Position numbers and translations under genes: made by a program. Below are positions 57,221 through 59,289 of a DNA stretch of 64,000 bases, one piece after another. Position 1 is the first letter of the stretch. Each line of letters opens with the position of its first letter. Source of the stretch: Synechococcus sp. MVIR-18-1. GTDB lineage: Bacteria; Cyanobacteriota; Cyanobacteriia; PCC-6307; Cyanobiaceae. A model generated the notes under the pieces. That model saw only the letters and a list, made by a program, of their open reading frames with translations, was not told the DNA's origin and did not search any database. The stretch spans positions 434,001 through 498,000 of the forward strand of contig NZ_CP047942.1 of the NCBI RefSeq assembly GCF_014279835.1, read 5' to 3'.

Positions 57221-57775
57221 ATGCTCGACGCATTCTCACGTTCGGTCGTCAGTGCCGACGCCAAAACAGCTCCCGTTGGTGGTAGTGACCTCGATGGTCT
57301 CCGCTCCTACGTTCGTGACGGCAATAAGCGTCTCGATGCCGTCAACGCCATTACCTCAAACGCCTCCTGCATCGTTTCTGATGCAGTTACGGGCATGATT
57401 TGTGAAAACACAGGTCTGATTCAGGCAGGTGGTAATTGCTACCCCAACCGTCGTATGGCAGCTTGCCTGCGCGATGGTGAGATCGTTCTCCGTTACATCA
57501 GCTATGCCCTCTTGGCAGGTGATGCATCCGTGCTTGACGATCGCTGCTTGAATGGGCTGAAGGAAACCTACATTGCGCTAGGCGTTCCTACCCAGTCTGC
57601 AGGTCGTGCCGTGGCTATCATGAAGGCCTCTGCTACTGCTCACATCGGAGAGACCAATACTCCTGGTTTGGGTGGTAAGCGTTTCCGTAAAATGGAAACC
57701 ACACAGGGTGACTGTGCCGCTCTGGTTGCAGAAGCAGGTTCTTATTTCGATCGCGTCATTGGCGCCATTTCCTGA
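57221..57775 (+). CDS. cpeB: Phycoerythrin I (class I) beta subunit
   Basis: A 184-aa phycobiliprotein, beta subunit of the class I phycoerythrin of the rods. All four bilin cysteines are present: 50 and 61 (doubly linked bilin), 82 ([14 protein letters not shown]) and 165 (GDCAAL). The FRKMETTQG insert is typical of CpeB and separates it from MpeB. Residue 141 is His (TAHIGET), a residue reported to matter for isomerisation of the 50/61 bilin. It is first in cpeBA. Confidence 0.96.
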
Positions 57776-57834
57776 TCTGGAATAAAGATCTTCTTTCTCC
57801 GCTTTCAGACACTTTTCATCTTTAGGAAACTCCA

Positions 57835-58329
57835 ATGAAGTCCGTCGTGACAACAGTTGTGACTGCTGCTGATGCAGCTGGTCGCTTCCCTTCTCAAAAC
57901 GATCTTGAAGCCGTTCAGGGCAATATTCAGCGTGCTGCTGCTCGTCTTGAAGCTGCAGAAAAGCTGGCCGCAGGCCTTGACGCTGTTACCCGTGAAGCAG
58001 GTGATGCTTGCTTTAGCAAGTACGCCTACCTCAAGCAGGCTGGTGAAGCTGGCGACAGCCAAGTGAAAGTCGACAAGTGCTACCGAGATCTCGGTCACTA
58101 CATGCGCTTGATCAACTACTGCTTGGTTGTTGGTGGTACTGGTCCTTTGGACGAGTGGGGCATTGCCGGAGCTCGTGAGGTTTATCGTAGCCTTTCCCTC
58201 CCAACAGGACCTTACGTTGAGGCTCTGACTTATACCCGCGATCGTGCTTGCGCCCCTCGCGATATGAGTCCTCAGGCTCTTAATGAGTTCAAGAGCTATC
58301 TGGATTATGTGATTAACGCACTCTCCTGA
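57835..58329 (+). CDS. cpeA: Phycoerythrin I (class I) alpha subunit
   Basis: A 164-aa phycobiliprotein, partner of CpeB. Bilin cysteines are Cys82 ([17 protein letters not shown]) and Cys139 (DRACAPRDM). There is no Cys75, which excludes MpeA. It lies 59 nt after cpeB and ends just before a strong terminator. Confidence 0.96.
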
Positions 58330-58351
58330 TCACCCAAAACCATTAAAATAA

Positions 58352-58375
58352 AAGCCCCATTAGGGGCTTTTTTTT
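58352..58375 (+). terminator. Terminator of cpeBA
   Basis: AAGCCCC (58352-58358), loop ATTA, GGGGCTT (58363-58369) and a run of T. It separates cpeBA from the convergent lyase gene and, having A on its 5' side, may also stop minus-strand transcripts. Confidence 0.9.
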
Positions 58376-58389
58376 ATGATCAGTAATTC

Positions 58390-59289
58390 TCAGTCGTTGG
58401 GCTTAAGTTGATTTATTGTCAGTCGAAAAACAGCCTTGACTCCTGGATCTTCTTCGGAATTGATTAATTCTTTTATTTCTGGAATTGCCTCAGTAGCATT
58501 TAGTTTCATCAATGCTAGTGCCGCATTTTTTCTTACCTGCGGAATTGAGTCAGACAGTCGAGGCTTCAGTAGTGGTTCTGCCCAGCCTGCATCATGCAGT
58601 TTTCCGAGAAGTGTGCTCGCTTCAGCCCGTACATCCGCCACTTCATCATTTAGTGCCGCAATCAGTAGGTCTCTTGCACTTTCATCCTCCAAGGCCTGGA
58701 TTTGATCGCCTAAGGCTGCGATTGCCGCTGTTCGAATTTCGGCATTGCTCGAGGTGGCTGCTTCCCGCAATCGTTCTGGGGCTCTGGCTCCAACAAACGA
58801 GAGTCCCCAGCTCGCCATGCCAAGTTGCATCTGCGTGCTGTTCGGGTTGGAAAGGACGCTTAGCAGTCCATCTAATGCTTCTTCACCAATAACTACCATT
58901 GCGCCGACTGCTGATCCTTGTACTACAGGATCTGAGTCTGTGAGCAATGCGTGTAGCAAGTCATCCAGTGCTGCTGTATCGCCAATCAGGGTGAGAGTTT
59001 TCGCTGCTGCACGCCTAACTGTGACGTTCTTGTGGCAACGAAGTGCATGGCAAAGGGCTGGTACGGCCGTTTTGCCAACTTGGCCAAGACTTTCTGCAAA
59101 TGTCAGACGCATCAATCCGCGTTTATCTCCCAGACCCGCGACCATTTTCTGGATTTGTTCCGGATCAGCGTCGGGAAGATGTCCTGAATTCAGTTGATGG
59201 GATAGTTCCTTGGCAAGTTCAGATGCTTCTTCTTCGCTCAGCTGAATTTGATCTTGCTCTGTTGCATGGTTTGGCGGAGTGTCAGGCAT
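58390..59289 (-). CDS. mpeV: MpeV/CpeF-type phycobilin lyase (lyase-isomerase family)
   Basis: A 299-aa HEAT-repeat protein of the E/F lyase clan (ATG at 59289, MPDTPPNHATEQDQ). Repeats are seen in RRAAAKTLTLIGDTAALDDLL, GSAVGAMVVIGEEALDGLL and RTAAIAALGDQ. Length and position next to cpeBA fit MpeV/CpeF, which attaches the doubly linked bilin to beta Cys50 and Cys61 of phycoerythrin; MpeU or another clan member cannot be excluded without an alignment. It ends 60 bp from cpeA, convergent. Confidence 0.65.
   Translation of the reverse strand: MPDTPPNHATEQDQIQLSEEEASELAKELSHQLNSGHLPDADPEQIQKMVAGLGDKRGLMRLTFAESLGQVGKTAVPALCHALRCHKNVTVRRAAAKTLTLIGDTAALDDLLHALLTDSDPVVQGSAVGAMVVIGEEALDGLLSVLSNPNSTQMQLGMASWGLSFVGARAPERLREAATSSNAEIRTAAIAALGDQIQALEDESARDLLIAALNDEVADVRAEASTLLGKLHDAGWAEPLLKPRLSDSIPQVRKNAALALMKLNATEAIPEIKELINSEEDPGVKAVFRLTINQLKPND

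Follow-up and report, generated by a model that had tools for sequence, protein, structure and literature searches.

The 64,000-nucleotide stretch of the Synechococcus sp. MVIR-18-1 genome that was analysed here (the window) carries the genes for the two subunits of phycoerythrin I (PE-I), a bilin lyase gene beside them, a DUF2656 gene, a small ORF, cpeY, cpeZ, a rod linker gene that we take as mpeC by position, and mpeA, the gene for the alpha subunit of PE-II. The next gene, mpeB, lies just beyond the window. The genome also contains a CA4-A island with a reverse-strand gene for a Nif11 protein, two genes at the fciA/fciB positions (an AraC domain was found by Pfam only in the second of the two) and an intact mpeZ, 83-89% identical to five clade-I genomes. 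The accessible parts of the published accounts describe MVIR-18-1 as a strain of pigment type 3aA with a genome of 2.45 Mb and a GC content of 53.4% (PMC3877281, PMC5318389, PMC10669429), and with a complete CA4-A island, mpeC present and only mpeU lacking (PMC3877281, PMC5318389). The GC content that we obtained over 400 kb sampled was 53.7%.

Table 1. Features of the MVIR-18-1 phycoerythrin region, with positions numbered from the first base of the window.
Feature	Position	Strand	Remarks
cpeB (beta subunit of PE-I)	57221-57775	+	184 aa; His141 codon CAC at 57641-57643
cpeA (alpha subunit of PE-I)	57835-58329	+	left clade-I-like flank ends with this gene
Replaced block (cpeF, DUF2656 gene, small ORF, cpeY, cpeZ)	58331-62327		between the cpeA and mpeC stops
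CpeF-type bilin lyase gene (CpeF/MpeV/MpeU family)	58390-59295	-	TTG start at 59295; first in-frame ATG at 59289
DUF2656 gene	59354-59788	+	homologues in relatives 45-58% identical
94-aa ORF	59796-60080	-	weak CpcD-linker-like match, below the Pfam cut-off
cpeY (PE-I alpha-82 lyase family)	60231-61559	+	deep branch at the base of the CA4-A CpeY group
cpeZ	61608-62246	+	named by position and similarity; deep branch
Phycobilisome rod linker gene, taken as mpeC by position	62327-63208	-	right clade-I-like flank begins with this gene
mpeA (alpha subunit of PE-II)	63482-63979	-	followed by mpeB outside the window
mpeB	64023-64568 (window-equivalent)		lies 23 bases beyond the window; His141 codon at 64146-64148

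The original prediction for this locus started from a histidine at residue 141 of CpeB. This residue is real. Cys50, Cys61, Cys82 and Cys165 are all in place in the protein, which scores 338 bits against the NCBIfam model phy_ery_CpeB (cut-off 275). A lyase gene of the E/F HEAT-repeat type does adjoin cpeBA, and the end given for it in the original prediction, 59289, is its first in-frame ATG. According to the available text of PMC9705338, His141 of the WH8020 CpeB prevents isomerisation by the WH8020 MpeV, the H141L replacement restores it, and the bilin at C50/61 can be predicted from residue 141 of CpeB and MpeB. Under this published rule, phycoerythrobilin (PEB) is predicted at beta-Cys50/61 of the MVIR-18-1 PE-I, in line with the initial proposal. 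By itself, the role of His141 is already-published biology. Among 59 distinct CpeB proteins at least 78% identical to the one of MVIR-18-1, residue 141 is His in all 31 that are encoded beside a CpeF-type lyase (MVIR-18-1 included), Leu in all 10 beside MpeU alone, and either His (7) or Leu (8) in the 15 beside both MpeV and MpeU; three further proteins with no lyase in view have His (2) or Leu (1). The MVIR-18-1 CpeB is an ordinary clade-I protein that differs by only 2-3 residues from the CpeBs of two relatives with His141, MpeV and MpeU. Because these two relatives have the same His, cell colour cannot be attributed to CpeB His141 alone, and the proposed link between this single residue and colour does not hold. 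CpeB His141 was inherited along with the clade-I flank.

Some additional features of cpeB and its homologues were observed. The non-coding stretch upstream of cpeB at 56834-57133 is divergent (0.67-0.86 to the SP2 MAG) and possibly represents a different promoter region. In locus L134 (genome G260), two tandem cpeBA pairs lie beside one CpeF-type lyase gene, and both CpeBs have His141. Outside the picocyanobacteria, residue 141 of CpeB-like proteins is Phe in seven loci (L076, L077, L078, L079, L080, L082 and L083) from Paraprochloron, Okeania, Aphanocapsa, Moorena and Trichodesmium, and His in the Nostoc and Komarekiella loci; the residue-141 rule may reach beyond picocyanobacteria.

The identity of the lyase was assessed by family search, diagnostic residues, trees and AU tests. 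In the genome, which consists of one contig of 2,451,974 bases and is 99.93% complete, the gene beside cpeBA is the sole member of the CpeF/MpeV/MpeU family, and the search of this contig found neither mpeU nor any second member. Columns were regarded as diagnostic when MpeV and CpeF were each at least 85% conserved yet different, which gave 11 columns (12 for CpeF versus MpeU). The lyase has the CpeF state in 11 of 11 columns against MpeV and 12 of 12 against MpeU, and the MpeV state in none of the 11. In the controls, four known MpeVs had 9-11 MpeV and 0-2 CpeF residues, and three CpeFs had 9-10 CpeF and 0-1 MpeV residues. In a tree of 119 family members, neither the MpeV group (21 rows) nor the MpeU group (38 rows) includes the lyase. 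In a tree of 43 it is a deep lone branch, and the MpeV clade (support 100/99) and the MpeU clade (100/100) both exclude it. Nesting of the lyase in MpeV was rejected by the AU test (p-AU 1.3e-6), as was a position with the clade-I MpeVs (8.8e-5). Positions as the stem of MpeV (p-AU 0.283), as the stem of MpeU (0.455) or as sister to the WH7803-type CpeFs (0.084) were not rejected, and we therefore refer to the enzyme as a CpeF-type lyase rather than as a proven CpeF. Since CpeF is a grade and not a clade in the lyase tree, and the stem positions were not rejected, the lyase may still have isomerase activity. The lyase does not fall outside the MpeV/CpeF branch that the original prediction used as its criterion, since that branch lumps two families together. 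In one scan of viral contigs for phage carriage, with the lyase as query, no relative of it was found.

The lyase gene is part of a larger block that does not resemble its counterparts. Six loci from clade-I-like CA4-A relatives, with one MAG supplying two of them, served for the comparison of the flanks. The flanking DNA is 82-92% identical to that of the clade-I relatives up to positions 58329-58330, at the cpeA stop, and again from position 62328, at the mpeC stop. The block in between measures 3,997 bases and contains neither mpeV nor mpeU. In five clade-I relatives, the equivalent slot has 4,996-5,056 bases holding mpeV, cpeY, cpeZ and mpeU, and these five blocks are 75-86% identical to one another over 79-100% of their length. 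Only 0-17% of the MVIR-18-1 block aligns to any of them. CpeY and CpeZ, the latter described as chaperone-like in the literature, form long branches that arise basally in the CA4-A groups (fasttree). The best relatives among the matches listed from 400 family genomes share 69% identity with the lyase and 53% with CpeY, and with CpeF or CpeY as query no close donor was found among these 400 genomes. Likewise, a search with the block DNA among 31 genomes of the genus found no close copy, the best match being 67% over 655 bases. We also considered the low GC content of the block (43.9%) as a sign of foreign origin, but dropped it because the blocks of the relatives are even lower (about 41%). The 4.0-kb cpeF-cpeY-cpeZ block thus probably has another origin than the clade-I, CA4-A-type DNA on either side of it.

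For MpeB, the expectation had been that it may differ from CpeB; instead, it also has His141. Identical sequences and proteins under the length limits having been left out, residue 141 was compared over 38 distinct rows, one of 39 (L252, a second fragment of the genome of L136) being dropped as a duplicate. It is His in all 10 distinct MpeBs from CpeF-type loci and in none of the 27 from MpeU loci, whether or not MpeV is also there (24 Leu, 3 Met). One further row, L233, has His141 and a lyase fragment that is too short to type, and is in neither class. The MpeB tree (earlier set, 31 rows) holds only two independent pairs for the link between His141 and lyase type, with which a sign test cannot reach significance (p = 0.5).

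The His141 codon of mpeB lies in a patch that is unlike the rest of the gene. Once codons 44-59 and 134-163 are removed, mpeB and four clade-I MpeBs form a group (100/100), and the AU test rejects placing it among the CpeF strains (p-AU 3e-89). In a tree of codons 134-163 only, mpeB joins the CpeF strains (98/84) and its clade-I place is rejected (p-AU 3e-4), while for codons 44-59 alone neither origin is rejected (p-AU 0.094 and 0.356). Clade-I and CpeF strains are distinguished by 96 sites; mpeB departs from clade-I at 29 of the 34 in codons 137-169 and at 7 of the 62 elsewhere, and all of these seven fall in codons 45-57, near Cys50. Clustering as strong as this was seen in none of 20,000 permutations, and four clade-I controls gave p-values of 0.12-0.50. 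A scan of the 16 flanking genes in 342 coding windows, each 90 bases long and scored against the best of at most four relatives, gave a mean identity of 0.919 (sd 0.049). The three lowest of these scan windows (0.61-0.71) are all in the mpeB patch, and mpeB holds seven of the lowest nine, the other two being in the panC/cmk ORF. Identity in the patch, the limits of which were drawn after the data were seen, falls below that of the rest of MpeB by 0.28-0.35 against the four clade-I strains; the largest such fall among 120 pairs of MpeV-strain MpeBs is 0.148. A point mutation was considered as the source of the MpeB His141 and dropped, because the His codon CAC and the clade-I Leu codon TTG differ at all three bases and the codon lies within a divergent patch that also has an insertion of three codons. 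Judged from its sequence, mpeB is a mosaic in which the stretch of codons 137-169, with His141 in it, matches the CpeF-strain type and the rest is mostly of the clade-I type. Unlike the inherited His141 of CpeB, that of MpeB arrived with the recombined patch.

Several side observations concern other MpeBs and the scan. The MpeB of RCC307 (L018, L250) has Leu141. According to the accessible text of PMC9705338, His is present in the MpeB of 'all PT3a (or 3eA) strains'; as 3eA denotes RCC307, this may be a misprint for 3aA. In L153, L217 and L231, a Met141 in MpeB is combined with a Leu141 in CpeB and an MpeU-type lyase adjoining cpeZ-cpeY, as described for pigment type 3f; the L231 genome is about 1.9 Mb. 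The low-identity segment in the middle of the 494-aa panC/cmk ORF spans positions 49724-49903 (0.72-0.83 for the best of the relatives).

Based on the present data, the phycoerythrin region of MVIR-18-1 is probably a mosaic, in which a CpeF-type lyase in a block of other origin is combined with a matching mpeB patch, and a green-light specialist is predicted. The cpeF-cpeY-cpeZ block would stand in place of the mpeV, cpeY, cpeZ and mpeU of the relatives, and on both CpeB and MpeB the lyase would most likely attach PEB to Cys50 and Cys61 without isomerising it. One His141 would come from the clade-I flank and the other from the short recombined segment of mpeB; since the latter came with the patch, the lyase and its substrate pocket would be of matching type. 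The initially proposed mechanism, in which His141 blocks the lyase, is only partly supported: a CpeF-type PEB lyase requires no His to keep it from isomerising. On this reading His141 need block nothing, and may instead be the residue with which a plain lyase performs best. The predicted outcome is PEB at beta-50/61 of both phycoerythrins, with the CA4-A island kept.

As to how this arrangement arose, we tentatively suggest, at somewhat less than an even chance, a joint exchange of enzyme and substrate, which brought the His141 mpeB patch and a cassette of unsampled ancestry together in a clade-I chromatic acclimater. The source of the cassette would lie near the CA4-A root and predate the change from CpeF to MpeV, and the patch would have brought the His141 pocket and perhaps also the sites near Cys50. 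Selection may have coupled the two exchanges. On this reading the green-light specialist would owe its origin to matched recombination rather than to the loss of mpeU. It is also possible, although we consider it rather doubtful, that the lyase block and the mpeB pocket are an old relic, retained while clade-I CA4-A DNA overwrote the flanks. The basal positions of cpeY and cpeZ, a CA4-A gene order without mpeU and the permitted stem position to MpeV are all consistent with such a relic. However, one relative matches the flanks at up to 92% identity, and this, like the intact island, points rather to a clade-I recipient of the block; sequence alone does not settle the direction of exchange.

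In the published account, MVIR-18-1 has a normal CA4-A gene set minus mpeU, and this loss alone fixes its low phycourobilin. We regard this as unlikely to be the whole explanation. The absence of mpeU and the CA4-A island with an intact mpeZ agree with it, and so does the Exc495:545 ratio as given in the available texts: this is low and invariable in MVIR-18-1 (0.46; PMC3877281), and since an mpeU mutant of RS9916 likewise falls to a ratio of about 0.4 (PMC5318389), it cannot separate the explanations. On the other hand, the entire mpeV-to-mpeU block is replaced and not mpeU alone deleted, a foreign patch alters position 141 of mpeB, and neither change is mentioned in the accessible parts of PMC3877281 and PMC5318389. 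More generally, we found no mention of the CpeF-type lyase, the replaced block or the mosaic mpeB in the accessible texts on MVIR-18-1, although a prior report is possible. Loss of mpeU could still contribute to the low phycourobilin. According to the consulted part of PMC9705338, the chromatic-acclimation sites are on the alpha subunits; the beta sites alone therefore do not account for the missing chromatic acclimation in a strain with a seemingly complete island, and the absent mpeU could matter at the acclimating alpha-subunit sites.

That the lyase is an MpeV which attaches the bilin to CpeB and, as in WH8020, cannot isomerise it there because of His141, while MpeB may carry phycourobilin, is very improbable. 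Such an enzyme would fit the position in the mpeV slot, the stem-MpeV placement that the AU test did not reject, and a CpeB with His141 that is 2-3 residues from the clade-I CpeBs of MpeV genomes. Yet the lyase has no MpeV-diagnostic residue, its nesting within MpeV was rejected, and His141 is present in MpeB as well. There is also no MpeU, and MpeV is accompanied by MpeU in CA4-A strains (PMC7948978). The family search, trees, AU tests and diagnostic residues together speak against both MpeV and MpeU, which are retained only as readings of low probability because the stem positions were not rejected. An assembly chimera or fast divergence instead of recombination is hardly credible: lyase genes do diverge fast between strains, but the genome is a single contig with intact ORFs, the block edges lie within bases of two gene ends, the patch trees put the mpeB segment with the CpeF strains, and the mpeU absence was reported independently in the accessible part of PMC3877281.

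What would be new in the mosaic proposed here is a natural case in which a lyase and the bilin pocket of its substrate seem to have been transferred as a matching pair. MVIR-18-1 serves in the literature as evidence that mpeU loss alone fixes cell colour, and if the mosaic is correct, this inference needs revisiting. The block would also help in tracing how CpeF, a plain lyase, turned into the lyase-isomerase MpeV, and under joint exchange it would preserve the stage that preceded MpeV.

The region was compared with the closest known systems. In the accessible published descriptions of MVIR-18-1, its phycobilisome genes are as in chromatic acclimaters, minus mpeU alone (PMC3877281, PMC5318389, PMC10669429), whereas we find that the presumed 'mpeV' is CpeF-type, that cpeY and cpeZ are foreign-type and that mpeB is mosaic. 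Of the features of pigment type 3dA, the CA4-A island is present, but mpeV plus mpeU and the MpeB Leu141 are not. WH8020, as described in the available text of PMC9705338, shares the CpeB His141 and the predicted PEB at beta-50/61 of PE-I, but has MpeV, MpeU and PUB on MpeB instead of a CpeF-type lyase, no MpeU and an MpeB with His141. The WH7803-type green-light specialists (PT 3a) have, like MVIR-18-1, a CpeF-type lyase, no MpeU and His141 in both beta subunits. However, their gene order is cpeBA-cpeZ-cpeF-cpeY, whereas in MVIR-18-1 cpeZ follows cpeY and is not next to cpeA; they are described in the accessible part of PMC5318389 as lacking mpeC, whereas the mpeC-like linker is present here; their lyase is only 62% identical to that of MVIR-18-1, and their flanks are not of the clade-I CA4-A type. 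The highest lyase identity seen (66-69%) is with the CpeF of MAG bin.404 (L037/L247), which also has PE-II and His141 in both CpeB and MpeB, but differs in its cpeZ-cpeF-cpeY order and is placed as sister to the MVIR-18-1 lyase with a support of only 52/74.
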